This document shows positions 4,019-25,556 of a stretch of 38,199 nt of DNA, piece after piece. Source of the stretch: a virus; IMG/VR virus record IMGVR_UViG_3300046171_000315, positions 1 to 38,199 of that record; one strand, given 5' to 3'. Numbering within the stretch: the stretch's first letter is position 1; the number at the start of each line of letters is the position of its first letter. A program made the translations under genes and the position numbers. The notes under the pieces were generated by a model. The model made no database searches, was not told the origin of the DNA, and saw only the letters and a program-made list of their open reading frames with translations.

Positions 4019-6610
4019 GTGAGAAATAGAACGAGTGAGTTGCAGAACTTATTAAGAAACCTACCTGCTGAAATGCAAGCCATTGAGTCTTCCCTTCAAA
4101 AGAGTTACAACGGACTACAAAGGTCTATTGCCACCGCAGGTAAGACAGGCAAAATTCGTGAGATGCAAGAAATCCGACATATGAATCGGACAGCAAAGAT
4201 GGCACAAGACCTTCAAAAGAAACTTGGTCGAGCCGCATCGCAGAGCGATAAAAACAGAATTATCGCTGAGTACAAGCAAAGGTTTGAACACGAAGATAAA
4301 ATTGCTGAAATGAGGTTGAAGGCACACGAAGATGTCGCCACTCAAATGGACAATGACTTAGAGGAGTATGTAAAGAAATATAAGTCAGGCTTGTTGGAAG
4401 GGGCTGAGAATGCAGCAGACGCACTCGGAGAGGGTTTTGATAACCTACAAAATAACCTGAAAAACCTAGATATAAAAGGTCTAGGTGGAATGATGAAGGG
4501 AGGAGGAAAAGGTCTTCAAAATATGGGCGGTGCTATGGGCGGCAACATGGGCAAGATGGTTGCAGGTCTTGGTAAGGTTGTTGCAGGATTGGGTGCTGTA
4601 GTTGGAGTTCTTGGTGTTTTTGCGGCTATTATGAAACAAGCCGATGATGCCGCAAAAGAAATGAATAGTCAGATTTTATCAGGAGTCAGTGTTTTTGATT
4701 TAGGTATCGCAAAGACAGGAGAACTTTCAAATCAATTGCACGAAATGAGGCAGATGTCTTATGATGTGGGATCTAAATTTAGATTGGCAGGACAAGATGT
4801 AGCCACCTTGCAAAATGAGTTCCTTAAGGCAGGTATGACTCTGAAAGAATTTGGACAGTTTGCGAATGTTGGCGAATACAACATGTTGGGAATGCAAATG
4901 GCTCTTGAGCAAGTGTTGTCTACCTCTCGTCTCTTAGGGATGGAGCAAAGCGAATTAGCCCAACAGTATGTTTCGATGAACGCTGACTTTGGTATGGATA
5001 TGGAGCAGATAGGGAACGCTTTCAGAGATATCTATACCGCTGCAAATTTATCAAGCATTGGAACACAAAAGTTTATGTCGATGATTACACAGGCGACAGG
5101 AAACTTGGCGTTGTTCAACATTGACTTTAATGAAGCCGCTGCTTTAGCCTCAGAGTTCATCGAAACATTGGGTGAAGAAGGTGCGAGCCAAATGCTTTCC
5201 AATCTTGCAGGAAAGTTCGGAAAAATGGGATACGAAGAAAGAAAGAGGATGGATTTGCTTTCAGGAGGAGGTCTTGGTCGAGGTGTTCGAGCAGGAATGA
5301 ATGCTCAGGCGGCTTTATTGGAATCAGGTTCAGGGGGAGATATCATTGCAGATGCCCTTGATAAGGTCGGCTTTGGTGGGGAAAATCTAGCCGATGCTTT
5401 GATGAAAATGAATGCCAAAGAACAAAGAGAACTTGTTAACACCGCAAAAAATATGGGTCTTGGGGATGAGCAATCTCGAAAACTTTCACAAGTGTCCTTT
5501 CAAGCCAATGCTCTTCAAACAGATGCCACAAAAGGTGCAAAGGGTATGGACTTGGGTTCGACTCTTGCGGTTATGCAAGAGGTCGCTAATAACTTTGGTG
5601 GGGGTGATATCCGTAAGGCGGCTTTCACAAATATGGCGGCACTTGAGAATGTCACAGGTATGCAAGGGGAAGAGTTAGATAACTATATGCAAATGATTGA
5701 CAGTATGCGTGGTCAATACGAAGATTTGCAAAGCATACAAGAAGTTGGGATAGATGCAGCCGCAGCAGAGAGGGGAATGTCAACAGCGGACTTGGAGAAA
5801 ATGATCCAAGAGAACTACAAAGTCACATTGGAGGATGGAAAAATAAAAAATTCAGTGACAGGGCAGCAGGTGAAAGGGTTTACGGATTATCTTGCTCAAA
5901 TGGCTATTGAGCAAGATGAGAACATAGCAGAACAAATGACTTTGGAACAGCAGTTGGCTCAAGAAGCCGTAGCCGAGACTCGCTCTTTGAGTGCTATTTT
6001 AGACAATACCGTATCAGGTATTCTTGATAATATTTACAATCTACTTTCAAGTTGGACACAATCTATTTTGGGTCTAGATGAAAATGAAGCCCGTGTTCAA
6101 GCAGAATTTATGCAAGAAAGAGAACAGAATATACAAGCCTACACAGATCAGGCTAATGAGGCGGATGATAAATTACGGGATCTTCGCAAAGCAACACAAG
6201 GTCGAGACATGACAGAGGCAGAGAAGGCTTATGAATCCGACTTGACAAGACAAAAAGATTACACAAAGGACAGAGCGAAAAAAGAAAGATACCTAATGCG
6301 TACAGGTTTGTCACGACTACCTTTTGACGCTCCCGATAGTAAGGATGAGTTGGAAAAAGACCTCCTAGCAGACAAACAAACACGACAGATGTTAGGTGTG
6401 GACAAACAATACGAACAGGCGAAGATGGATTCCTCCAACGCATGGGATTATACGCTAACAGGGCAAATCTATCAATATTTCAGCGGTGAGAATCATGCTC
6501 AAGCAGCAAATACGATGCAAAGAGATGTTTTTGCAGGAGCACACACCCCCAAGGGGAGAGGAGGGTTTTGGTCGAGATTTAGAATACTACAAATCCCTCG
6601 AAAGAGATGA
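4019..6610 (+). CDS. Tail tape measure protein, 5' segment (continues after a +1 frame change)
   Basis: GTG start at 4019 with AGGAGG 5 nt upstream. The protein is almost entirely helical with coiled-coil stretches (residues 1-130), a Gly/Met-rich segment, then a hydrophobic helix at about 175-205 (VVAGLGAVVGVLGVFAAIMK), as is usual for tape measure proteins. Long helical repeats rich in Met, Gln and Ala follow. The frame stops at TGA 6608-6610, but from about 6551 coding sense passes to the +1 frame: HTP continues as RGEEGFGRDLEYY. The rejoined protein has 1067 residues; tape measure length scales with tail length, and this would imply a tail on the order of 150 nm by the usual proportion. 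It lies directly after the assembly-protein pair, as expected. Confidence 0.85.
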   Translation: MRNRTSELQNLLRNLPAEMQAIESSLQKSYNGLQRSIATAGKTGKIREMQEIRHMNRTAKMAQDLQKKLGRAASQSDKNRIIAEYKQRFEHEDKIAEMRLKAHEDVATQMDNDLEEYVKKYKSGLLEGAENAADALGEGFDNLQNNLKNLDIKGLGGMMKGGGKGLQNMGGAMGGNMGKMVAGLGKVVAGLGAVVGVLGVFAAIMKQADDAAKEMNSQILSGVSVFDLGIAKTGELSNQLHEMRQMSYDVGSKFRLAGQDVATLQNEFLKAGMTLKEFGQFANVGEYNMLGMQMALEQVLSTSRLLGMEQSELAQQYVSMNADFGMDMEQIGNAFRDIYTAANLSSIGTQKFMSMITQATGNLALFNIDFNEAAALASEFIETLGEEGASQMLSNLAGKFGKMGYEERKRMDLLSGGGLGRGVRAGMNAQAALLESGSGGDIIADALDKVGFGGENLADALMKMNAKEQRELVNTAKNMGLGDEQSRKLSQVSFQANALQTDATKGAKGMDLGSTLAVMQEVANNFGGGDIRKAAFTNMAALENVTGMQGEELDNYMQMIDSMRGQYEDLQSIQEVGIDAAAAERGMSTADLEKMIQENYKVTLEDGKIKNSVTGQQVKGFTDYLAQMAIEQDENIAEQMTLEQQLAQEAVAETRSLSAILDNTVSGILDNIYNLLSSWTQSILGLDENEARVQAEFMQEREQNIQAYTDQANEADDKLRDLRKATQGRDMTEAEKAYESDLTRQKDYTKDRAKKERYLMRTGLSRLPFDAPDSKDELEKDLLADKQTRQMLGVDKQYEQAKMDSSNAWDYTLTGQIYQYFSGENHAQAANTMQRDVFAGAHTPKGRGGFWSRFRILQIPRKR
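6546..6552 (+). other. Probable +1 frame-change point in the tape measure gene (C5 run)
   Basis: Frame 1 reads CAC ACC CCC AAG GGG; frame 2 reads ACA CCC CCA AGG GGA. A proline tRNA on CCC (6548-6550) slipping one base forward to CCA would give HTP-RGEEGFGRD and open the frame to 7223. CCC followed by A is a known type of +1-prone context. The alternative is one extra C in the C5 run through sequencing or mutation. Confidence 0.5.
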
Positions 6611-7223
6611 AAAACATCAAGCAGCAATAGAAGAATTTGAGAAGAAGAACGAAACGGTTCAAGAGAAAATAAAGCAGAAAACAGAGGCAGGTGTTGATGC
6701 TACCGAAGCAGTAGAAGAAGCCATCCGAGAAGCGAGTATGAGGGAGGAGATATATCAAAGTGCTGTTTTGGGTGGAGTCAAAGGGAGTAAACTCACTGAT
6801 GCCATAACAAATGAATTAGATGGCACAAACAAGAAGGCTGTTGATAATTTAGTTAGTGCGAGAAGGACAAAGGTTGAGGCTCTCGACATGACTACAGGGA
6901 AAGAGCAAAAGACGAGATACAATGAAATGGTCGACAGGCTATTTGCAGCAGGGTATCTGCAAAACACTGACCTGAAAGTTCCTGTTGAGGACTTCATTTA
7001 TCGTGGTGGGGCAATGGGAGGAACTATTACACCCATCCACACACAAGATCAGTTCTTGGGTATGAAGCCCAACGGACCTGTCGATAAGGCAATGGGCAGT
7101 GGTGGGGTAACCGTTATCGTTAATGTTCAAGGGGATGCCAATGCCTCGACCATAAATAGAATCACAGCAGCAGTAACTTCTCCGAAAGTCTTGGACAAGT
7201 TAAGGGGGAAACGTAGAAAATGA
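6552..7223 (+). CDS. Tail tape measure protein, 3' segment
   Basis: About 223 residues in the +1 frame. They start in a charged coiled coil (RDEKHQAAIEEFEKKNETVQ) and end with a pattern common at tape measure C-termini: VEDFIYRGGAMGGTITPI, a D-Q-F-L-G-M-K-P-N-G-P stretch, then a small beta module (GGVTVIVNVQGDA) and a basic helix. That module normally caps the tape measure near the baseplate, so this is the true C-terminus. Upstream starts in this frame (such as ATG 6486 region) have no ribosome binding site. The stop overlaps the ATG of the next gene (ATGA). Confidence 0.75.
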   Translation, partial: RGEEGFGRDLEYYKSLERDEKHQAAIEEFEKKNETVQEKIKQKTEAGVDATEAVEEAIREASMREEIYQSAVLGGVKGSKLTDAITNELDGTNKKAVDNLVSARRTKVEALDMTTGKEQKTRYNEMVDRLFAAGYLQNTDLKVPVEDFIYRGGAMGGTITPIHTQDQFLGMKPNGPVDKAMGSGGVTVIVNVQGDANASTINRITAAVTSPKVLDKLRGKRRK

Positions 7224-13461: not shown

Positions 13462-14538
13462 ATGAGTTTTGATTTTCAAATAGCCTTTCCCTGTCCTCAT
13501 CTTATACAAGAAGAGCGAGTTCCTCTTGATTCAGATCGAAGAGGTATGTTGATTTCTCAACCGATTGCCTCTTCAGGAACGGTTCGAGTGTTGGTGGATG
13601 ATACCTTTGTTGTGCCTTCAAATGGTTTGAGTACAAATGCTGTCCTTCAAAGTTCTAAGTCAGGGGCATATCGAATACCAAAAAATGAAACAACACTTAA
13701 AGTTTCTTCTCTAACTGAAACAAGCACCATAGAACTTTCAACTTCAAGATCGATTTCTACAGACAGTCTTGTAAAGATACTCAACGCAAAGTTTACCACT
13801 ATTGAAGCCGTTAATTTTAATGGGCATTTGATGCTTAAAGAAGGGATGTCTTTTGGAAAGCAGAGTCGACTTTTTGTAGAAGGGTCTGCAAGAGACACAT
13901 TGGGCTTTGGTTTTGTTTCAAGTGCAAGAGGGAGGCAATTGTATCCTGCTTGGAGATTAGAAAAAGTGGAAGGAACTATCAACGAAAGATATCCGAGATT
14001 TGTGTCACCCTTAAAGAATAATCCCATTATAAAGGTCACATACACAACCCCTGCTGAGAGGTGTTTACGTTGTGGTGGTTCTTTTGTTGAAAATGATTTT
14101 CGCATTGATAGTAACGGTGATCTGCGAACGATTTCAAATCATGATCTGTTGTATCAGATTTGTATGAAAGCCATCTTGACAGAGAAGGGATCTAATCCTT
14201 TTTACAAGTATTATGGAACTCCTTTGATGGAGAGCATAGGCAGTAAAGCCTTGATGGGTATAGGCAATTTCTTACGCTTTGAGGTAGATAGAACTCTTAA
14301 GTTAGTACAAAAAGCACAAACCGCCCAAGCAAGATATCAAACGATTTCATTTGAAGAACGGCTTTTGAATGTTTTGAATATTGCAGTAATACAACACGAG
14401 TCTGATCCCACTGCTTTTTTAATAGATGTCACCGTACAAAGTGCTTCTCAAAAACCCATTTCTTTGTCAATCGTATACACTGCCCCAAGTGCAGTTGCAT
14501 TGGCAGGTTCAAATGGCTTATCTCTTGGAGTTAAATAA
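13462..14538 (+). CDS. Baseplate wedge protein with gp25-like C-terminal domain
   Basis: 358 aa, ATG with GAGGT 5 nt upstream. The C-terminal ~150 residues fit the gpW/gp25 (T4 gp25-like) wedge family: ISNHDLLYQICMKAILTEKG, a Y-Y-G-T-P-L-M-E-S-I-G loop, a long helix, then FEERLLNVLNIAVIQHESDP and terminal strands. In T4, gp25 links sheath to baseplate and starts sheath assembly. The N-terminal ~190 residues are an added beta-rich domain, and a C-x-x-C (ERCLRCGGS, about residue 198) sits between the two. T4 gp25 is about 130 aa, so this is a long, two-domain form. The stop overlaps the next start (TAATG), and the order gp25-like then J-like is the conserved wedge order. Confidence 0.75.
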   Translation: MSFDFQIAFPCPHLIQEERVPLDSDRRGMLISQPIASSGTVRVLVDDTFVVPSNGLSTNAVLQSSKSGAYRIPKNETTLKVSSLTETSTIELSTSRSISTDSLVKILNAKFTTIEAVNFNGHLMLKEGMSFGKQSRLFVEGSARDTLGFGFVSSARGRQLYPAWRLEKVEGTINERYPRFVSPLKNNPIIKVTYTTPAERCLRCGGSFVENDFRIDSNGDLRTISNHDLLYQICMKAILTEKGSNPFYKYYGTPLMESIGSKALMGIGNFLRFEVDRTLKLVQKAQTAQARYQTISFEERLLNVLNIAVIQHESDPTAFLIDVTVQSASQKPISLSIVYTAPSAVALAGSNGLSLGVK

Positions 14539-17500
14539 TGACACCGACAACACTAGGCTTTGATGGAAAATACCGAGAAAGGTTTTTATTCAATACCACA
14601 ATAATGGATCAATTTTTTACAGGGGTTCTTCCTCCAAACACAATCGATGTGCAGGTTTCTATAAGAGGGTCTTCTTATGCCTCCAATCCTGACTTAATCG
14701 TATTCGAGGATACCTCTTGGTCATTCCCCAACCCAAGTGTGTTTCCTGATGGGTTTGAACTATTAGATGGTGAAAACACTATCTTGATTAGGGCTATTTT
14801 GGCTAATGGTGATGTAACTCCTCCCTGTGAGATACGAGCCATTCTTGCAAAGGAATCAAGCACTTCTCTCGTTGCGGAAGTACCCACCAATATTTCTCTT
14901 GTCAGACACAACACCCACACAACAATTTTGTGCGATGGTGTTTCATCGGCAATAGGGTACAACTTTTATGCCTCCTTAACCTCAGGAGGAGGTTCCTCAG
15001 GGTATGTGAGATTAAATGCCAACACTGTAATATCAGGGACAGACGTCCGAGAAGAAACCTCTTTATTTTCGGTGGAGGCAGAAGAGGACATCTTATTAAA
15101 TTCGGATGGAACGCACTTGGCAGATCCAACATTTATTGGTGTGTCAACGCAGCAAAAAAATCAATTAGGAATTAATCTTAAAGAGACTTTGGTATCCCAA
15201 GTAGAAGTTCCTGAATCTACAAGCACCGTAAAAACTTCTGTTTCCGTATCTTCAATTGATATCAAACAGAGGTTTTCCTTTGACCATTATCGAAGCGGAG
15301 GAGCGACCACCGTTCCTGCAACAATACCAAATGCTTCTTTCTCTGCTCTTCTTGACTCTGACCTTTTGTATTATGTGATTACTGCCATTTACTTTGACCT
15401 TGACTTGAATTTGCAATTTGAAAGCCCCTTCTCTGTGGAAGTTGTGGGTAGTCCATTAGGCATCACAACTTCTATTGTGAGCCTGCCAAGAGTCACAAGA
15501 CAGGACATTCGTAATAATTTTATTGGAGATGTTTTAAGGGCACACCCTGACCTAAGAGTCGAACCGAATTCTGTTTTGTCGGATACTGTAATACAACCCT
15601 TTTCTACTGAGGTCGAGAGAGTTCGATTTATCATTGACTTTATGCACAGATCTCAATCCTTCTCGACTCTTCTTGTTTTAGATGATCCTTCAAATTCAGG
15701 AGAGTCCCAACCTTTCGTAGATTCCTCTTACAAACAAGCCCTGCAAACCTCTTTTAACTTATCAAATGGGCAACAAGTACAAGCCTTGATAGACTCTTTG
15801 TTTGAGCATAGAGCATCGAATTATGGAATAGAAAGGCGATTAGGGCGGAGATCTATTGGAAGAGTCACGCTGTTTACAACAACAAGCCCTTCAAGAACTT
15901 TGTTTGTACCAAGCGGAACTTTCATTTCATCTCGGTTTTATACAACACAGCCCGTATCGATGTATGTGAATCAGTTAGCCTCCTACTACAATCCATCTCT
16001 CAGACGATGGGAGGTGGAGGTTACCGCTGAGTCGGTTGAGGTTGGCACACAAGGGAATGTTCTCGAAGGAGGGGTGAGTGGCACAGTATTAGGGTTGAGT
16101 GTGGTAAACGGCTCGGCTTTCTTTGGAGGGCAGGACAGAGAAACAAATGCTCAATTAGCCCGAAGGACAATGAATTCATTAGCAAGTGTGGATACAGGAA
16201 CAGAAAGAGGGTACTTGCAATTGGCAGCCGATATCGTTGGTGTTCGGAATGTCCAAGTAGTTCCATCAGGGCACGCTTTAATGCAAAGGGATCTTGACGA
16301 TTCAGGAGTGCATAGAGGGGGCAAGGTTGATCTATGGATTAGGGGGTCGAGTTTTTCTCAAGTCACAGACAATTTTGCTTTTCAATATACTCTTGCTAAA
16401 GACATTCAATTTGAGATAGTGGGGTCTCCTTTGAACCTGATATTTAGGGCATCGGACGATCTTCTTTCAGAGAGCACCCCTATACTTGAAATGTTGCAGG
16501 ACACAACAGCAGAACTCTCTTTCCGAAATGCAAGTACAGGGCAGACGTTTGATTTGACAGGTGTTGTTGTTCTTTCTTACAACACTATTCAGTTGTCCTC
16601 TAGTGTAGACCAACCGAATTTTTCTTATGGGGATGTCCTGTTTGGGGATTACAGAAGGTTAGATGGGTCATCTTTTACTTTTACAAGACAGCCTGCACAG
16701 GAGATAATTTCTGTTGTTGGGACGATAAGTGGGTCTTTGCCCACAAGTTCTTTTGAGTTGGTGACACCTACTGCTCCTCTTGATAAAGGTTCTTCTATTC
16801 AAGCAGGCTCTTACTTAAATATAATTGGTTACACAAACAGCAGTGGGGCGAGAGTGCCCTCAGGACAGGCGATTGTTGTTTCTAATGAAAGCCACGTCAT
16901 TATGGGAGGCTATTCAGAGTACTTGAATAACTTGGGCATAGACTCCTTGACCGTTGTGGTAACAAGTCCTGATGGTCTGACTACTTATAGATCTCCAAGC
17001 CATTCGAGCGGTATTTCTGACTACACCTTTGTAAGGGGCAGCGAATCAACACCGCTTGCTATAAAGAGAACTGATAACAGCGAAATCAAGTCAGGAAGTA
17101 CGGTTCTTGTTTCTTACCAACACGATGAAAATTTCACAGTGACTTACACAACCAATTCTTCTGTTATTGCAATACAAGAAAGCATAAATACAAAGAAGCA
17201 TGTCACTGCTGATGTTTTGGTAAAAAGTTCTGTTGAAGTGCCTGTCGACTTGGAGTTATCGGTTGCTTTAGTGTTGGGAGCAAGCCCTGCTACCGCAGAC
17301 AGGGCTATTCGTACCAACCTTGCAAACTTTTTCAATAACTTGAAAGCAGGAGATCCTGTCAGACAATCGGATATCGTGGACATCGTAGATTCTTCTGAAG
17401 GGGTTTCTTATGTCGTAGTTCCGATTTCTCGAATGACAAGGCAAGAGGGTTCTCTAGTTGTTTCCGAAACCTTATCTGTTTCGCAAAACAACGATGTTAT

Positions 17501-18089
17501 TTATCTTTCGGGAATGTCCAATAATTTGGTGAGTGTGTATCTAGTACAAGACTCTCTTTTCTTTCCTACTTATGACACAGGAGGCTTAGACAAAGACTTT
17601 AGGGGGGTTTACATCAACGACTCTCTATTGGTGAATGTTGAAAGATTGTCCTCAACCGCAGAAAATGTGTCTAGTGCTTCGGCTCTTACATCTGCTCCCA
17701 ACCGTTCTTATATTGTGGGTAATGAAGGGGCGGTCATCTTAGGGTACACGGATGACCAAACCTTGATTGATCAAGGCTACACCGATATCTTTGCTCGCCA
17801 AGATTACAGGAAAAGTTTGACCCAAAACCGAGTTCTTGTTTCCTGTGCTGCTAGTGAAGATATTACAACAAAGAATTTGAAGGTCACCTATTACGTTTCT
17901 TATGACAGAGGTGTCAGAAACCTTGACCCCATAGAGGTCGAGTACCACACATTGGGGGAACTAACTGTTACATACGATGAGGATGTTGCCTTACAAAGTC
18001 GAAGCCTCTACTCAGGTTCAGGCGGTGGGTCATCGGCAAGTGGCTCAAGTGGTTATAGTTCAGGCGGATCTTCATCAGGAGGTTACTAA
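14538..18089 (+). CDS. Baseplate wedge protein, Baseplate_J/gp6-like
   Basis: 1183 aa. After ~400 residues of beta-rich N-terminal modules (including an Ig-like LVAEVPTNISLVRHNTHTTI segment) comes a typical Baseplate_J core at about 430-585: FVPSGTFISSRFYTTQPVSM, EVEVTAESVEVGTQGNV, NAQLARRTMNSLASVDTGTE, then VRNVQVVPSG. The C-terminal J module is at about 880-970: KSSVEVPVDLELSVALVLGA followed by a G-D-P-V-R-Q-S-D-I-V-D-I-V helix and SYVVVPISRM. T4 gp6 and P2 gpJ carry the same core and form the wedge dimers that clamp the hub. A ~300-residue insertion separates the modules. The last ~25 residues are almost only Gly, Ser and Tyr, probably a flexible tail. Both ends overlap neighbouring genes by TAATG. 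Confidence 0.85.
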   Translation: MTPTTLGFDGKYRERFLFNTTIMDQFFTGVLPPNTIDVQVSIRGSSYASNPDLIVFEDTSWSFPNPSVFPDGFELLDGENTILIRAILANGDVTPPCEIRAILAKESSTSLVAEVPTNISLVRHNTHTTILCDGVSSAIGYNFYASLTSGGGSSGYVRLNANTVISGTDVREETSLFSVEAEEDILLNSDGTHLADPTFIGVSTQQKNQLGINLKETLVSQVEVPESTSTVKTSVSVSSIDIKQRFSFDHYRSGGATTVPATIPNASFSALLDSDLLYYVITAIYFDLDLNLQFESPFSVEVVGSPLGITTSIVSLPRVTRQDIRNNFIGDVLRAHPDLRVEPNSVLSDTVIQPFSTEVERVRFIIDFMHRSQSFSTLLVLDDPSNSGESQPFVDSSYKQALQTSFNLSNGQQVQALIDSLFEHRASNYGIERRLGRRSIGRVTLFTTTSPSRTLFVPSGTFISSRFYTTQPVSMYVNQLASYYNPSLRRWEVEVTAESVEVGTQGNVLEGGVSGTVLGLSVVNGSAFFGGQDRETNAQLARRTMNSLASVDTGTERGYLQLAADIVGVRNVQVVPSGHALMQRDLDDSGVHRGGKVDLWIRGSSFSQVTDNFAFQYTLAKDIQFEIVGSPLNLIFRASDDLLSESTPILEMLQDTTAELSFRNASTGQTFDLTGVVVLSYNTIQLSSSVDQPNFSYGDVLFGDYRRLDGSSFTFTRQPAQEIISVVGTISGSLPTSSFELVTPTAPLDKGSSIQAGSYLNIIGYTNSSGARVPSGQAIVVSNESHVIMGGYSEYLNNLGIDSLTVVVTSPDGLTTYRSPSHSSGISDYTFVRGSESTPLAIKRTDNSEIKSGSTVLVSYQHDENFTVTYTTNSSVIAIQESINTKKHVTADVLVKSSVEVPVDLELSVALVLGASPATADRAIRTNLANFFNNLKAGDPVRQSDIVDIVDSSEGVSYVVVPISRMTRQEGSLVVSETLSVSQNNDVIYLSGMSNNLVSVYLVQDSLFFPTYDTGGLDKDFRGVYINDSLLVNVERLSSTAENVSSASALTSAPNRSYIVGNEGAVILGYTDDQTLIDQGYTDIFARQDYRKSLTQNRVLVSCAASEDITTKNLKVTYYVSYDRGVRNLDPIEVEYHTLGELTVTYDEDVALQSRSLYSGSGGGSSASGSSGYSSGGSSSGGY

Positions 18090-18322
18090 TGTCTAATCCC
18101 TATAAAACAGGAATCACTCAAAACCCAAGCCCTTTGCAGGAAGAGGGTCATGACTTTGAAAAGAAAGTTCAAGCAGAAGCCGAATATATAATGAAAAGAT
18201 TTTTGGTAATGCTTCCGAGCAACTATGTGGCACAGAAGACGGACCTTTCTATACCCTGCAATTCAAGGCAATGGCAGAGGCACTTGCGAGAGTTCAAATC
18301 TCTGTTCAGCAAATGGGCTTAG
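18089..18322 (+). CDS. Baseplate wedge/tail protein, 5' segment (continues after a -1 frame change)
   Basis: Starts at the TAATG overlap with the J-like gene. Residues 1-38 (MSNPYKTGITQNPSPLQEEG ... AEYIMKRF) read as a normal N-terminus, but beyond the T5 run at 18200-18204 this frame gives unconvincing protein and ends at TAG 18320-18322. The neighbouring frame carries good coding sense from about 18160 onwards with no usable start. Joined at the T5 run, the protein has 422 aa. A separate 77-aa protein is possible but less likely. Confidence 0.5.
   Translation: MSNPYKTGITQNPSPLQEEGHDFEKKVQAEAEYIMKRFLVMLPSNYVAQKTDLSIPCNSRQWQRHLREFKSLFSKWA
18199..18205 (+). other. Probable -1 frame-change point (A TTT TTG)
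   Basis: Frame 1 reads AGA TTT TTG GTA; frame 2 reads ATT TTT GGT AAT. A -1 slip, or one missing T in the run, gives KRFFGNASEQLCGTEDGPFY. A TTT TTG is not a perfect X-XXY-YYZ heptamer because the first base is A, so efficient ribosomal slippage is uncertain. T5 is also a simple target for indel error. Confidence 0.4.
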
Positions 18323-19356
18323 ACTCTGCTTATGAATTTACAAGACCTGAACTTATGTGGCAAATACTTGGCTCTATGGTGTTCCCTAAGATAACGGAAA
18401 ACCTAATGCAACCACCCATTGTAGAAGGGGATGTTCCTTATCGAGATTTTTTGAAGCAGATGGTCATTCTTCTTTTGCAAGGTTCAACGAAGAACTCAAT
18501 TCAAACAGGTGCAGGATTATTGACCGATGCTGATGTCACTGTCATAGAAAAATCTATCGCATCTTCTCTTGAAGATTCCGCTTGGGGACTTGAAGATCAA
18601 TTCACTTTTGAGGTCAATGTTGAAAAGAATGGTGGAACAGAGTTCCCTGACAAACCTTTTGATCTCCTTTACAATGTTTCTGTTATTCTCGATGCTCTTA
18701 AACCTGCCCATACACTCTTTGAGTATCGGCATATATTTCGTGAGGTTTTTGGAACTTTCTTCCAAGACGAAATGTTTCTCCAACAGGACATTTATTATTA
18801 CGATGACTTTCGTAAGTATTGTCTTGGATTGAAGAACATATCAGGCTCAGGGTATATCCTATCCAATAGACAGTATCTTTCAGACCCTCTTCGCTCGTTT
18901 TCTAGTGTTCAAAAAGGCAGCACCCTTTATATAGGAGATGTCCCCTACGAGGTTGAAAGTAGTCACCATTTTATCGGAGGGGATGATACCGCTCGGTACT
19001 ACACAACAAGCCCCACAGGACTACAAGGGTTGGCTACTGTCGAAGGATCAGTACTAACAGACCCTTGTCAAGATTGGTCGCTTGCCGCAGAGGGAGAGAT
19101 TCTTACTTTCCAAGAGGGTATCAATGTGGGGGCTGCATACCGCTTACAAGATGTTTTAGGTTCGAATGGGGGTAGTGTTGGCTTCGTTAGCGGAGGGGGC
19201 ACACAGGTGCGGATATGCCCCTCTATTGTCAAAGTCACGACAAGGCTGCCTGTTGCATCAGGTACTGTGTCTTATACAATAACATTGGACAGATTAGGGG
19301 TGAAGGAAGTGAGAGAAGTGTCCAATGAAGATGTCTCCCTTCAATGTTATCTTTGA
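18202..19356 (+). CDS. Baseplate wedge/tail protein, main segment (gpI/wedge position)
   Basis: About 384 residues from GNASEQLCGTEDGPFYTLQF to the TGA at 19354. ATG 18271 is the first ATG in this frame, but starting there would drop the coherent TEDGPFYTLQFK segment and it lacks a good ribosome binding site. The N-terminal part is helical (MAEALARVQISVQQMGLD, YEFTRPELMWQILGSMVFP), the middle is mixed, and the last ~130 residues are beta-rich (SRQ/SNRQYLSDPLRSF onward). Following the J-like gene, it occupies the place of tail protein I or another wedge component. Function is inferred from order only. Confidence 0.6.
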   Translation, partial: FGNASEQLCGTEDGPFYTLQFKAMAEALARVQISVQQMGLDSAYEFTRPELMWQILGSMVFPKITENLMQPPIVEGDVPYRDFLKQMVILLLQGSTKNSIQTGAGLLTDADVTVIEKSIASSLEDSAWGLEDQFTFEVNVEKNGGTEFPDKPFDLLYNVSVILDALKPAHTLFEYRHIFREVFGTFFQDEMFLQQDIYYYDDFRKYCLGLKNISGSGYILSNRQYLSDPLRSFSSVQKGSTLYIGDVPYEVESSHHFIGGDDTARYYTTSPTGLQGLATVEGSVLTDPCQDWSLAAEGEILTFQEGINVGAAYRLQDVLGSNGGSVGFVSGGGTQVRICPSIVKVTTRLPVASGTVSYTITLDRLGVKEVREVSNEDVSLQCYL

Positions 19357-19398
19357 TAATTCCTTTATATTTCTGATTTGTAAAAAAGCGAGGTAAAT

Positions 19399-20451
19399 AT
19401 GCAAAGTCGGGTTTCGCTATTGGCAGATCGATACATGATACGAAAAGCCTGTGAGATAGCCTATTCAGACATCACAAAAATACGAACAGCCTCTCTGAGC
19501 AAAAGAGCACAGAGAGTTCGGTCAGAGTTTTCTGTGGAGTTGTTAGAGGCATTCGCTTATCCTTTTGTGGGAAGAATAGCCGCAAAGGGCATTGGAGTAA
19601 AGGATATTGCCAAGAAGGTTAAGGATATTTGGGGTGCGTTCAAAAAAGCCCCTAAGTATTGGAACAAATTCAAAGAGATGTTGGGCATTAAGTCCAAGAA
19701 TATTGTTGGTCTTATTGCTGAATTGCCAAAGAAACTTATGGGTTTTTTTAAGCAGGGCATGAAAGCAATAGGAACAGCCACCAAATCTCTTGTGAAATCA
19801 TTGGGAGACTTCGTTAAGATTTTTGCCGCTATTTCATCAAAGACAGCCATTTTCAATCAGTTGATGGAAAAGATAATGCCTTTGTTGAAGAATAATCCTG
19901 CTACTTTATGGGTGACAGAGAAAATAGACAAAGCCACAAACACTGCTAAGAACTTTCTCAGCAAGGTAAATCTTGGTCAGGGCAGTGGAACAGCCCTAGA
20001 CTTCTTCAAGGGCATTCTTGATTGGCTTTTGAATAGCAAGGTCTCTAATGCTTTAGGAACTCCTCTCAAAGCCTATGTGTTTTTTAACATTTGGATTAAT
20101 GTGACCGAGATTTCTTGGGACTTTACAGGGATAGCAAAAGGGATGTTGGGTTTGATATCTTGGAATGAACTCTTTGCTTCTTTGCCTGAGAGTGGTGTTG
20201 GATTTGTGATTTCTTTAATCTTAGGAGCAGCCTTCCCAAGTATCGCTCTATTCGGACCTTCGGCAGGCTCAATCCTTACAAAGATAACGGGCAATTGGTT
20301 GATGTTTGTCGCCCCTGTTTTCCAAATAATGATAATGGCGAAGGAGAAATTAATTAAATATGGCAAAGGGGTTGTAAAGTTCCTTTGGGATAAGATTGGT
20401 ATCGACGATTGGCAAGAGCAGGGTCTGCCTGAGTCATTATCCTTAGCCTAA
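19399..20451 (+). CDS. Virion-associated protein with hydrophobic C-terminal helices
   Basis: 350 aa, ATG with GAGG about 6 nt upstream. The N-terminal half is basic and helical with repeated Lys-rich amphipathic segments (IAAKGIGVKDIAKKVKDIWG). The C-terminal part has two or three hydrophobic stretches long enough to cross a membrane, near residues 225-255, 265-290 (GVGFVISLILGAAFPSIALFG) and 300-315 (LMFVAPVFQIMIMA). There is no signal peptide. A protein with this layout in a baseplate operon could be an injected or pore-forming virion protein or a membrane-docking component. I recognise no family. Confidence 0.5.
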   Translation: MQSRVSLLADRYMIRKACEIAYSDITKIRTASLSKRAQRVRSEFSVELLEAFAYPFVGRIAAKGIGVKDIAKKVKDIWGAFKKAPKYWNKFKEMLGIKSKNIVGLIAELPKKLMGFFKQGMKAIGTATKSLVKSLGDFVKIFAAISSKTAIFNQLMEKIMPLLKNNPATLWVTEKIDKATNTAKNFLSKVNLGQGSGTALDFFKGILDWLLNSKVSNALGTPLKAYVFFNIWINVTEISWDFTGIAKGMLGLISWNELFASLPESGVGFVISLILGAAFPSIALFGPSAGSILTKITGNWLMFVAPVFQIMIMAKEKLIKYGKGVVKFLWDKIGIDDWQEQGLPESLSLA

Positions 20452-20505
20452 TCAATAACTTGTCTATAGAACCATCCTTTTTGAAAATGTTTATTGGAGT
20501 AACAG

Positions 20506-21936
20506 ATGCCTAAGTCAAATAGAAGAATCTCTCGCCAAAATGATTGTATGCTAAACAAAATAGAGATTGTGGATGAAAGCACCTTATTCGGAATAGGTAT
20601 GATGGCGGCTCTCGTGATGAAAGGTTACGATGGGAATGGCGACCTTGCTGTTGAATCCGCAAAGTTTGTTTATGATGTGTTGCAAAGTTGGGACGACGCA
20701 CAAGCGGAATTCGATGATATGGCATCCGCCATTAATAAGAAAAACAGGCAAGGATTTTTGGACTCTTTTGTTAGTTACACTGAGTCAGAGAATGACCTAA
20801 TTGATGCTTTGGAAGATGTTTCTGAGGTGTTTTCTCATACGAATTTTTCTTTCGATCAAGATGTTTCTGACATAGATACCATGTACGAAGAGTTGGATTC
20901 TTTTACCGATGGGAACAAGTTGATGGGGCTTTTCACTGTTCCTGCGGAGGTTGCAGAAGCGAAGAAGGAAAGAGAAGATAAGAACAAAGCACTGAAACAA
21001 ATGAGAGAAGACTTTGAAGCATTGCAAGATGACCTCGATGATGTTCAAGCAGATATGGCAGTGAAGATTTTTGATTTTTATGACCTCTCTGTTGATGTTC
21101 GATTACAAACCGCTCTCAACGAAATCAAGAGAGAACTTGATAGTGTAAAGGCAGAGGAAGCCGACACGGTAAAAACCCTTAAAAAATTGAAGAAGCAAAA
21201 AGGTCGTGCAAGTAAAAAAGAAAGAACACGAATCAACAAACAAAGAGCCAAGTATCAAGATGAACTCTTAGATATACAGAGCCGTATCCCCTCCTTGAGC
21301 AAGCCTGATGTCGAAGAACTTACAGCGATAGCAGAAGAGCAGAATGCCACTGCCGCAGCAGCCTTGAAGAGTGCGAGAGCAGAGAGAGAACGTTTGTTGA
21401 AGGAACAGAAAGAGTTGCTTTCTGAGATTGATGAAGCAACAGAATTGTTAAGAAACTCAGGCTTAGGTTTGATTCTCAATACAGATGAGAATGGGGATAC
21501 AGAAGCCTTACAGCAATTTCTGACCTTCGAAGGAAAACGCAGCAATGTTTATGATGCTGCGAAGAAGAAACTTAAATCCTTAGCGAAACTCATCAAGAAT
21601 GAGCAGAAAACTTTGAAGCCTTTGAGCATAAATGTTCCTTATCTTGATGCCTGCCTTCTACTCCATAACTATTCCAAGAAGGATTACCCTTTGACAGCCC
21701 TCAGAACTTTTTTACAAAGAGCCTTGTTGGGACAAAGATGCTTGTCGAGAAAGGATTGGAACGATTCTAATATGATGGACAAGTCTTATTGGGACAAAAA
21801 GATAAAAGAGGTCAGATCTTTTTATGATGGCAGGTACGGATCACACGCAATAATCGCAGAAGCCATCATCGACCAAACGAAAAAGACTCCTCCTAATTTC
21901 CAAGCCTATCTCAAAGACCCTAAGAGACTGCGGTAA
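20506..21936 (+). CDS. Coiled-coil protein of unknown function
   Basis: 476 aa. ATG 20506 has GGAG (20496-20499) 6 nt before it. Residues about 155-185, 205-265 and 275-315 are strongly charged, heptad-like helices (KALKQMREDFEALQDDLDDV; LKSARAERERLLKEQKELLS) that should form long coiled coils. The C-terminal ~150 residues are a compact globular-looking domain with NVPYLDACLLLHNYSKKDYP and several Trp/Tyr. I do not recognise a family. Its place in the late operon after the baseplate genes suggests a virion or assembly protein. Confidence 0.55.
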   Translation: MPKSNRRISRQNDCMLNKIEIVDESTLFGIGMMAALVMKGYDGNGDLAVESAKFVYDVLQSWDDAQAEFDDMASAINKKNRQGFLDSFVSYTESENDLIDALEDVSEVFSHTNFSFDQDVSDIDTMYEELDSFTDGNKLMGLFTVPAEVAEAKKEREDKNKALKQMREDFEALQDDLDDVQADMAVKIFDFYDLSVDVRLQTALNEIKRELDSVKAEEADTVKTLKKLKKQKGRASKKERTRINKQRAKYQDELLDIQSRIPSLSKPDVEELTAIAEEQNATAAAALKSARAERERLLKEQKELLSEIDEATELLRNSGLGLILNTDENGDTEALQQFLTFEGKRSNVYDAAKKKLKSLAKLIKNEQKTLKPLSINVPYLDACLLLHNYSKKDYPLTALRTFLQRALLGQRCLSRKDWNDSNMMDKSYWDKKIKEVRSFYDGRYGSHAIIAEAIIDQTKKTPPNFQAYLKDPKRLR

Positions 21937-21967
21937 TACAACAATGAAAACAATAAAGGAGCGAATT

Positions 21968-22429
21968 ATGGACCCGATTACAATAGCAATACTCGCATTT
22001 TTAGGTGGGAGTTTGGTTACAGGTGGGACTATCTTTGGTATTCAGAAAGCCAAAGAGGATAAGATACAAGAAACAACTGAGTTGGTAGCGGCTATCGGTC
22101 AGTTGAAAGATCAACTCGGAGAGGGACAAAAACAGGTGATGATAAACCTGACAGATGAAGACCTCTTGAAAGATGCTTGTTCCACTGACTATATCAAAGA
22201 GCAAGGAGATAGTCTTTGCAGAGAGATGTTCTGTCGTATGCAGAATAGAGGACTTGATAAGGGTGCAACACAGGCAGAGTGCGAGAATATTAGCCATATC
22301 ACCAACAGCAAACACAGATTGGAAACTTGTATGCCTTATTGGGGTGAAGACACCATCTTAGAAGATGGCGGCTTCAATAAGAATAGCAAGTATGCCATTT
22401 GTATGAATGTGTTTGAGAGCAGAGAATAG
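21968..22429 (+). CDS. Small membrane-anchored protein with six-cysteine domain
   Basis: 153 aa if started at ATG 21968, preferred to ATG 21944 because AAGGAG (21956-21961) lies 6 nt before it. Residues 3-25 (ITIAILAFLGGSLVTGGTIF) form one transmembrane helix, followed by a charged stalk and a ~90-residue domain with six cysteines (DACST, SLCRE, MFCRM, AECEN, ETCMP, AICMN). An even number of cysteines behind an N-terminal anchor suggests a disulfide-bonded domain outside the cytoplasm, or a metal site. It could be a membrane-docking, lysis-related (spanin-like) or virion protein. No lipobox is present. Confidence 0.55.
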   Translation: MDPITIAILAFLGGSLVTGGTIFGIQKAKEDKIQETTELVAAIGQLKDQLGEGQKQVMINLTDEDLLKDACSTDYIKEQGDSLCREMFCRMQNRGLDKGATQAECENISHITNSKHRLETCMPYWGEDTILEDGGFNKNSKYAICMNVFESRE

Positions 22430-22438
22430 GAGTCTTTG

Positions 22439-25414
22439 ATGATAAAAGTTTTTGTAAATGGAAAGAAGAACCCAAAATTTACAGCAGCCTTTAAGAGTTT
22501 AGAGCAAACAGTAAAAGGAAGTAAAATACGTTCTTTGAAGAAGATCCGTGTGGATTTTAATGTCACTAGAGAAGAAATAGTAGGAGACCCTGTCACCGTA
22601 GATATGAAAGACAATACAATCACGGTTTCCTTATCAAAAGTTCCGACACAGAAAGCGATTGTTCCTTTGACTTGTTTGCTTTATGCAAAGGCTTTGTTGC
22701 AGATAGGGGCTAACAATTCTCTGTGGAAAAAACATTTTCAAGTAAATAAGTCCCTTATCAAGCCTTACTTGCGTTCTTTTTCTAAGGTTGTTGTAAAGTA
22801 CAAATCTCTTTTCATAAATGACAAACTCAGTATGATGGGGCTTGCTGTGGCTTTGTTTCGATACAAAGTTTTCTTAGAGGGAGCACTCAGTGGAGACGAT
22901 GTTAAATTATTCAAGAAAACTTTTTTGCCATTCTTTGAAGATGTCTTTGATGAAGATGACTCAGAGCCTCTACAAACAAGTCGTCTCGATGCCCTAACAA
23001 GTGAAGTTCAAAAATACGCTTCTTTGCCTGAGAAAGTATTATCGACAGCAGCAGTAGATAAGTATCTACCAAGTGATCGTCAGATTAGTCGCCTTGCAGA
23101 TGAAGAGGATTTAATAAGTTTTGTCAATAAAGAGTTAAGAGACCTCCCTGCCACTGATCTTCTAGAAGCATTAGAAGATGAGAACTTTATGGATGTAGTT
23201 GTTGAAAAGATAGACATGACTCAAGTCAAACTGTTTATGCAAGAAGTTTTGGGGGAGCAGGACACAAGAAAAGAAGGGGATAAAGAAGTTGAGTTCGATC
23301 CTCTAGAGGGGAAAGAAAAAGCATCGCTAAAATTTCAGAGGGAGCAAGCAAATTGCCTCTCTGCTCTTGCAAACGTTTTTGGAGGAGGAGCACCCCCTTC
23401 AAGTAGTGCCTTTGACAAGACAGCCCCTGTAGAAGAACTTATTGGGAACAACCCTCGCTTCATACAATCTTTGGATGAACAAGCCAAAGAAATGACCTCC
23501 TATGTTGGAGCATCGAATGTGGATGAGAACACGAAAGCCTATTGGAAAGGACTTTTTGAAAAATCCTATGGTGGCTCAGAAGAGTTTGATAAAGCCTTCG
23601 GCACTCTTCCTGTGGGGGAACATGCAGGGGGTTATGATTGGTATGCCTCAACCTCTGCCTTATTGGAAAAGTTTAAGGTTGTTTTGTCACGAAACAATAT
23701 GACAGAAGCAGACACAGGGGAGTACTTTGAGGCTGTGAAAACTGCATTAGAACCTCCTGTGCCTGATCCTGATACCCCTGTCATCACAATGGGACCAATC
23801 AAAGGGGCATCACGTGCTCGAAGTAAGATATTAAAGTATGATCAGGACATCTCTCAGTTAGGGGATATAGTTCGATTTACTGTTGTTGTTGATAATGACC
23901 TTAGCAACTTCAATGAGGTTTTTCGTCAGATAGAAGAAACCTTTGGTGCGATGGATGTGAAAGTTGCCTCTCAGATTGAGAGCAAGTTCAATAGCCCCAC
24001 CCCTGTTGGGTATGGGGACATAAACTTTTCGGTATTTTTCGAGAACTTAGGGCTTGCAGGAGAGGTTCAAATAACAACACCTGCAATGGCAGCAGCCAAG
24101 AAGCAATATCATGTTCTTTACGAAAAGACTCGTAACATAGAAGCCCTTGCCTCTGCTGTCAATCAGATTTTCAATTCAGACACGAAAGGGTTTTCTTTAT
24201 TGAAGGCATTGGTCGCTGTTCGCCAAGACCTTGTAGACAAAGCAAAAGATGCGGACAAGGCTCAAATGAAGGCTGAGTTTAAGCGTCTTATCTCTCCCAT
24301 ACAAAACATAGACACTGCGAAATTAGAAACCATTGCCTATAAAGATATGGACACAGAGGGGTTATCTTTATTTGGGAGTGTTGACCAAAGTTCTTTGGCA
24401 CAAGCAATTAAGGTTTATTCTAATAGTTTTCTTAGCCTTGATGACCTAGCAGATTTTGAGAATAATTGTCGAGTACAACTTGATGGTTACAATGAGGCAA
24501 GAGGTGTTATGAGTCTTGCCCCCCACGAGTCTACTAAGATGCTTCTCAGAACTTCTATGCAAAATGGAAAGGTTGTAATCAATTCAAAAATCCAAGCGAA
24601 GATAGAAGAGGTTCTTATTTCTAAGAACCCTGAACTAAAAGGTAAAGCCTTAAAAGATGCAATGATGAAAGAATTACTCAAGAGAGACTTCAATGTGAAG
24701 GACTACACTCCGAATGATTATGACTTTGCAAAGCAGGCTCGTAAAAAGCAAGGGTCACTTATTGGGGGGTTCTATATGATCGAGGGCATCCCTTACTCTT
24801 GGGATGGTTTTGGAGCATTGCCTAAGTTCTTTACAGGAGCGAATCCAAGAGGTTGTGTTGATTATGAGGTTTCAGAATTTCTAGTTAAGGCACGACCTAT
24901 TACAGAAGATGTGTTTCATAATAGAGTAGCGGAATTGACCTTAGAGCAAGCAGAGAAAAGAGAGAAGAAAATTGCTATGGCAGAAAACATTATTGAGGCT
25001 ATTGCAGATAAGCCCAATAAAACAGCGAGCCTTCGTAGTCAAGTGATTAGGCTTGCCCACGCAAAGCCTAAACTGAGAGGTCATTTGCTTCCTTTGTTGA
25101 AAGAAGCGAAAGATTACTCAGCAATCTTTGATAAACTGAGTAAGGGTAAAAAAATCCAAGTGGCTCTTACGACTTACGGAATGTCAAGCGGACAGGGGGT
25201 CTTTGATGGTCAACTACACGATTTCGTTGTTGGTCGTTCTTCTTACTCAAAGAAATGGGGTGTCGAGAGTAAAGTTCTTATTCCTGTAATAGATGGCACA
25301 CCAAAACCTGCTCGCAATAAAGCGAACAAGATTGTTATGATGCGAAGAGCCAATGGAAATGTGTCGGTTGCTTTTGGTGATATGGCGACCAATCTCATTA
25401 ACCTTCGTTTGTGA
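22439..25414 (+). CDS. Large late-operon protein with internal RelA/SpoT-like region
   Basis: 991 aa. ATG 22439 is chosen over TTG 22436 because AGGAG (22428-22432) is 6 nt upstream. The N-terminal ~370 residues are unassigned and mostly helical. Residues about 450-570 follow the RelA/SpoT synthetase pattern: a basic KGASRARSK segment (455-463), LGDIVRFTVV with D476 and R479, then VGYGDINF (Y525), EVQITTPAMAAAKKQYHVLY (E542, Q544, H558). The family normally has G-Y-x-S-x-H and E-x-Q-I-R-T, so some key positions differ and activity is uncertain. Near 864-890 lies LRSQVIRLAHAKPKLRGHLL, followed by a ~100-residue C-terminal module. It is the last gene of the plus-strand operon, ahead of a strong terminator. 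Confidence 0.6.
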   Translation: MIKVFVNGKKNPKFTAAFKSLEQTVKGSKIRSLKKIRVDFNVTREEIVGDPVTVDMKDNTITVSLSKVPTQKAIVPLTCLLYAKALLQIGANNSLWKKHFQVNKSLIKPYLRSFSKVVVKYKSLFINDKLSMMGLAVALFRYKVFLEGALSGDDVKLFKKTFLPFFEDVFDEDDSEPLQTSRLDALTSEVQKYASLPEKVLSTAAVDKYLPSDRQISRLADEEDLISFVNKELRDLPATDLLEALEDENFMDVVVEKIDMTQVKLFMQEVLGEQDTRKEGDKEVEFDPLEGKEKASLKFQREQANCLSALANVFGGGAPPSSSAFDKTAPVEELIGNNPRFIQSLDEQAKEMTSYVGASNVDENTKAYWKGLFEKSYGGSEEFDKAFGTLPVGEHAGGYDWYASTSALLEKFKVVLSRNNMTEADTGEYFEAVKTALEPPVPDPDTPVITMGPIKGASRARSKILKYDQDISQLGDIVRFTVVVDNDLSNFNEVFRQIEETFGAMDVKVASQIESKFNSPTPVGYGDINFSVFFENLGLAGEVQITTPAMAAAKKQYHVLYEKTRNIEALASAVNQIFNSDTKGFSLLKALVAVRQDLVDKAKDADKAQMKAEFKRLISPIQNIDTAKLETIAYKDMDTEGLSLFGSVDQSSLAQAIKVYSNSFLSLDDLADFENNCRVQLDGYNEARGVMSLAPHESTKMLLRTSMQNGKVVINSKIQAKIEEVLISKNPELKGKALKDAMMKELLKRDFNVKDYTPNDYDFAKQARKKQGSLIGGFYMIEGIPYSWDGFGALPKFFTGANPRGCVDYEVSEFLVKARPITEDVFHNRVAELTLEQAEKREKKIAMAENIIEAIADKPNKTASLRSQVIRLAHAKPKLRGHLLPLLKEAKDYSAIFDKLSKGKKIQVALTTYGMSSGQGVFDGQLHDFVVGRSSYSKKWGVESKVLIPVIDGTPKPARNKANKIVMMRRANGNVSVAFGDMATNLINLRL

Positions 25415-25556
25415 AACCCACAAGGTTGTAATTACTTGAAATAAAATAGATAAAAAGTAGCAACTTTGATTTATTGGCGGTATTAAACAACATAGTAATT
25501 TTATCTTATTCTATATTATCTTCGGGTTGGGTTTGTCTTTCAGACCCAACCCTTCT
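25415..25556. terminator. Convergent intergenic region with 12-bp terminator hairpin
   Basis: The 142-nt gap between convergent operons is AT-rich and non-coding. GGGTTGGGTTTG (25524-25535) pairs with CAGACCCAACCC (25541-25552) over 12 bp (one G-T wobble) around loop TCTTT, followed on the plus strand by TTCTTTAT. This is a good intrinsic terminator for the plus-strand operon. On the minus strand the stem starts 4 nt after the stop codon at 25557 and is followed by an A/T-rich but not T-run sequence, so it may be bidirectional with weaker action there. Confidence 0.8.

Follow-up and report, generated by a model that had tools for sequence, protein, structure and literature searches.

A divergent RelA/SpoT-type synthetase domain in a tagged protein at the end of a phage tail operon

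Introduction

Exported alarmone synthetases with varied delivery domains have been published (PMC12691689), and RelA/SpoT domains are known from two kinds of phage protein, the polyvalent proteins (Iyer et al. 2017, PMC5512222) and the MuF proteins (PMC5576092), in both cases together with the idea of injection. Here we describe a 991-aa protein encoded by the last gene of the tail operon in IMG/VR virus record IMGVR_UViG_3300046171_000315. The window analysed is this entire record of 38.2 kb, a fragment of the genome of a contractile-tailed phage. The protein contains a RelA/SpoT-type synthetase (SYNTH) domain at residues ~445-570, and also a peptide of ~27 aa, the tag, which is shared with otherwise unrelated proteins of huge phages. 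It is new relative to the published phage RelA/SpoT domains in its divergent carrier, its cargo slot in a tail operon and its tag. Neither the tag nor a tail-operon carrier of a SYNTH domain was found in the literature searched, and the tag string LRPHLLPLL was likewise not found there, subscription papers being outside its coverage.

Results

The SYNTH domain

Residues ~445-570 are confirmed as a RelA/SpoT-type SYNTH domain by similarity far beyond chance. RelA_SpoT (PF04607) is the top Pfam family of the protein, scoring 17.8 bits over its full length and 21.4 bits when a stretch of 200 aa was taken alone. In the six-frame window the family was matched at E 3.8e-6, with a score of 22.3 bits that does not reach the curated cut-off. 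The best PDB sequence match (phmmer, E 2.4e-4) was Tas1/Apk1, a (p)ppApp synthetase of the type VI secretion system (T6SS). In order to avoid circularity a clean profile was made only from exported alarmone synthetase loci of Vibrionaceae and Shewanella, without phage sequences, and its E value for the window protein was 3.4e-13 (Z=1e6), compared with 280 for the best-scoring of 2000 shuffled versions; a profile from PHB04-like phage proteins gave 1.3e-13. Scans of viral contigs for close relatives, with either the full-length protein or its domain as query, returned no match, and a family alignment was required. Weak tblastn matches (E about 2-10) to Pseudomonas portal and Gordonia minor tail genes were dismissed as chance. 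An earlier note on this DNA had placed a RelA/SpoT-like region inside the protein, and PF04607, the Tas1 match and the clean profile all bear this out.

Structure prediction points to the same family. AlphaFold2 gave a predicted local distance difference test (pLDDT) score of 65 with 11 aligned sequences and of 78 with 33. All Foldseek matches in PDB with E<0.001 were alarmone synthetases, SaEAS (8vx3) and the small alarmone synthetases (SAS) of B. subtilis leading. Superposition with VIA gave Z 13.4 to SAS1 (root mean square deviation 2.7, 162 residues), about 11-12 to SaEAS and 10.1-10.4 to Tas1, and CapRel and FaRel2 chains were also among the structural matches (Z 9.6 and 7.1). TM-scores were modest at 0.4-0.5, as is expected at this model confidence. 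The domain is thus predicted to have the synthetase fold, and both the profile match and the fold on which the earlier note had staked its claim were recovered.

Active-site residues

The motifs quoted in that note (a basic patch, LGDIVRF, VGYGDIN, EVQITT and YHVLY) are all in frame and correctly numbered, and D476, Y525, E542 and Q544, which it had recognised as kept, are part of the conserved set. Conservation was scored among 31 relatives with the window sequence left out, and columns at least 95% conserved were taken as near-invariant. The window protein retains 15 of the 19 near-invariant columns, including K455, R459, K463, D476, G524, Y525, D527, E542, Q544, K554, H558 and Y561, as against 8 of the 80 variable columns, and because of this the domain looks maintained and, as far as the sequence goes, intact. 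All invariant charged and catalytic residues are retained. Changes at conserved positions include R526 of GYR, which is replaced by G, and those at P535 and L534.

The ATP-site residues of Apk1/SaEAS, R330/R124, N370/N169 and E382/E182, align with R479, N529 and E542 of the window protein, and Apk1 N370 and SaEAS N169 are among the residues of active enzymes that have been listed as binding ATP (PMC12691689). The change of H to N in syn3 was therefore rejected as a sign of decay, since N529 is the state found in Apk1 and the exported synthetases and conservation is concentrated at the catalytic positions; the alternative of a decayed binding domain, which had been raised before, is weakened on the same grounds. 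The Vibrio family of exported synthetases also has GYRDxN, and one enzyme of that family is reported as a producer of pppGpp (PMC12691689). In the MuF-linked Apk2, GxN is found where guanosine-type enzymes have SxH, and swapping these residues left specificity unconverted (PMC12226406). Because the swap does not convert specificity, and because a maker of pppGpp shares GYRDxN, the alarmone product cannot be read from the sequence.

Operon and cargo slot

The SYNTH gene closes a co-directional run of tail genes, and is followed by a strong terminator-like hairpin and then by convergent genes. A tail-sheath match at the start of the window, the baseplate proteins at 13462-18089 and the terminator confirm the tail operon, in agreement with the late-operon, virion-module setting that had been proposed. 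Of 20 related contigs, 11 encode a homologue of the 1183-aa baseplate protein at 39-49% identity, and several of these contigs are 250-500 kb long. The closest of them, G007 (289 kb), shows synteny at this locus, with the gene directly upstream 83.5% identical and the downstream convergent genes shared. Its slot holds four different genes instead of the SYNTH gene, one of which encodes a 565-aa protein tagged at both ends, and this arrangement is repeated in a second contig. SYNTH proteins are also encoded downstream of baseplate genes in two other tag-bearing records: that of G001 has 740 aa with N-terminal and internal tags, and that of G008 has 525 aa with a tag near the N terminus. As to the cognate partner expected in a toxSAS toxin-antitoxin module, the search covered hydrolases, and no HD_4 hydrolase was found in the 38-kb record, G001 or G008, all of them possibly fragments.

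The shared tag

The consensus of the tag across huge-phage contigs is MTTLRSKLIRLAHENPELRPHLLPLLKEA. Residues 863-890 of the window protein match this peptide, with which many unrelated proteins begin in huge phage LR745208. Viral contigs yielded 69 loci when scanned for it; the tag was present in 20 of 20 records searched (1-22 copies each) and is carried by at least 104 distinct, otherwise unrelated open reading frames (ORFs) of related huge-phage contigs, in genes dispersed across the genomes. Most of the 97 anchored copies start near a Met (70), with 24 internal and three C-terminal. A 1243-aa protein has three tags, between which its recognised domains sit, and the SYNTH protein of G001 continues into a fused, tagged module that is similar to the separate tagged ORF following it. 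At the family level, and with small counts, tagged proteins match 2H phosphoesterase, ART-PolyVal, ParB-like nuclease, DUF2958, WGR and RelA_SpoT, whereas the matches of 42 untagged neighbours are to methylases, capsid, NAD synthase, amidase and similar.

Copies of the tag within a genome have an amino-acid identity of ~0.8, and third-base identity at identical residues is 0.33-0.49, compared with 0.34-0.39 expected from codon usage. The idea that the tag is a DNA repeat of recent origin or a mobile insertion was rejected because third-base identity is close to this expectation, and the codon analysis shows that the tag is under selection at the peptide level. The internal proteins of T4 have a capsid-targeting sequence, a short, mostly N-terminal peptide common to otherwise unrelated phage proteins. 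The tag may be likened to it in form only, and differs in being also internal and C-terminal.

Comparison with known systems

Tas1/Apk1 and the exported synthetases (SaEAS, VpEAS/RelV) are the best sequence and fold matches of the window domain, and share with it the SYNTH fold, the R of syn2, the N of syn3 and the catalytic D and E. However, the window domain is very divergent, only 22-30% identical to them, and lies in the middle of a phage protein of 991 aa whose tag is internal. A known delivery domain is absent from this protein in Pfam, the shared tag being a candidate export signal only, and no T6SS domain or signal peptide was recognised in it. Among the loci of exported type, Photobacterium plasmid pDA100 (L004:10642-12474) has two tandem alarmone synthetase genes with signal-peptide-like N termini.

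Polyvalent proteins likewise have a RelA/SpoT-type domain in a large phage protein, and tagged relatives carry further domains of polyvalent type (2H, ART-PolyVal and ParB). In contrast to them, the window protein has one recognised domain, a tail-operon slot and the shared tag, and no metallopeptidase domain was recognised in it. One polyvalent-type protein occurs in two lengths, the form in L017 (6747-11900) exceeding that in L016 (6747-10655) by ~400 aa, and its C-terminal part in L017 contains an intein-like stretch (start CVSPDTKIL, end HNC).

The MuF polymorphic toxins with Apk2 (PMC12226406, PMC5576092) are again phage proteins with an Apk-type domain and are thought to enter with DNA, but the window gene is in a tail and not a head operon, and the IapK/Aph1 immunity genes were not found. 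Membership of the MuF proteins was rejected, as the window protein had no MuF match in Pfam up to E 10. ATI15652.1 of Bordetella phage PHB04 is 32% identical over the SYNTH domain and has a virion-module position as in the window, but it is untagged, lies beside the portal gene and has an RSH (RelA/SpoT homologue)-type hydrolase gene two genes downstream. The two PHB04 genes (MF663786.1, 11080-13345) may form a synthetase/hydrolase pair, and their position is that of a lytic module.

Gene structure and feature positions

The positions of the features are collected in Table 1. The ATG start has AGGAG 6 nt upstream and the ORF was judged real; the ORF listing gives an alternative TTG one codon earlier, which would make the protein 992 aa long. 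In the 5' part of the window the end of an 863-aa ORF (4019-6610) overlaps the start of a 245-aa ORF (6486-7223) by 125 nt (6486-6610), and a frameshift, either programmed or due to an assembly error, may have divided a single protein into the two.

Table 1. Features of the 991-aa protein and its surroundings, in window positions
Feature	Position	Strand	Remarks
991-aa protein, last gene of tail operon	22439..25414	+	ATG start, AGGAG at 22428-22432
RelA/SpoT-type synthetase (SYNTH) domain	23738..24298	+	profile envelope; core ~23771-24148, residues ~445-570
syn1 basic patch K455, R459, K463	23801..23827	+	
syn2 DIVRFT, catalytic D476; R479 aligned to Apk1 R330	23864..23881	+	
syn3 GYGDIN, Y525, D527, N529; N529 aligned to Apk1 N370	24008..24025	+	
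syn4 EVQITT, catalytic E542, Q544; E542 aligned to Apk1 E382	24062..24079	+	
YHVLY, invariant H558 and Y561	24107..24121	+	
Shared ~27-aa tag ASLRSQVIRLAHAKPKLRGHLLPLLKEA, residues 863-890, internal	25025..25108	+	
C-terminal module after the tag, without assigned function	25109..25411	+	
Upstream tail/baseplate genes, same co-directional run	13462..22429	+	baseplate proteins 13462-14538 and 14538-18089; conserved 161-aa gene 21944-22429
Terminator-like hairpin, 12 pairs and T-rich tail, operon end	25524..25552	+	

Discussion

Because an intact-looking synthetase relative is joined to a sorting-like tag, we consider it rather probable that the 991-aa protein is an effector directed at the host, making (p)ppGpp or (p)ppApp and sorted by its tag; from the evidence above we infer its activity, acceptor, packaging and injection. 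Its gene would occupy a cargo slot where the tail operon of this huge contractile-tailed phage ends. The SYNTH domain would use ATP as pyrophosphate donor and modify a nucleotide at its 3' position, giving (p)ppGpp and/or (p)ppApp, and in the early phase of infection this synthesis would halt the growth of the host or use up its ATP/GTP. The tag may act as a sorting mark, the most likely destination being the inside or the surface of the virion, from which the protein would be injected. The parts of this proposal with direct support are homology, fold, retention of the active site, position in the operon, the swap of payload at the slot and the shared, selected tag. Several observations weigh against it. 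The PF04607 scores (17.8-22.3 bits) fall under the curated cut-off of 27 bits, and the domain is on a very long branch, because of which the tree gives no firm placement. In the Pfam search residues 1-430 were without a family, the tag of the window protein is internal, behind the SYNTH domain rather than N-terminal, and no immunity or hydrolase gene, possibly needed by an enzyme made in the producing cell, was found nearby.

The main rival is an active synthetase that works late inside the producing cell, where it slows host functions or excludes rival phages, and that is not packaged, the tag serving in sorting or in interactions that have nothing to do with virions. The evidence from the domain and its active site fits this too, as does the finding that tags are also internal and C-terminal and that tagged genes are spread over the genomes. 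We nevertheless regard it as rather unlikely, given that the gene is in a tail operon and adjoins baseplate genes, that the content of the tagged proteins is effector-like, and that virion-linked RelA domains, by association with MuF and polyvalent proteins, have been published (PMC5512222, PMC5576092). Retention of every invariant charged or catalytic residue makes it improbable that the protein is a catalytically dead synthetase fold, serving as a nucleotide-binding or structural piece of the tail or baseplate, even though the long branch, the changes at R526, P535 and L534 and the place of the gene among tail genes would suit such a role; syntenic phages without the domain at the slot also argue against a needed structural part. 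It is more doubtful still that the domain is a tRNA pyrophosphokinase of the FaRel2/CapRel kind, which would block translation via the 3' CCA ends of tRNA. CapRel and FaRel2 chains are indeed found among the structural matches, but Tas1, SaEAS and the SAS enzymes rank higher by both sequence and fold, and the syn2 and syn3 residues are of the Apk/exported-synthetase type.

It is also quite possible, and we suggest tentatively, that this lineage of huge contractile-tailed phages loads varied host-directed effectors, alarmone synthetases included, into virions via the ~27-residue tag for injection, and that it has swappable cargo slots, of which the one closing the tail operon would be an example. 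If the 991-aa protein is a host-directed effector, the phage may bring an alarmone-making enzyme into the host, and a bacterial stress signal would have been turned into a tool of take-over. The tag would at the same time be a sequence handle for predicting which of the many uncharacterised proteins encoded by huge phages have the host as their target.
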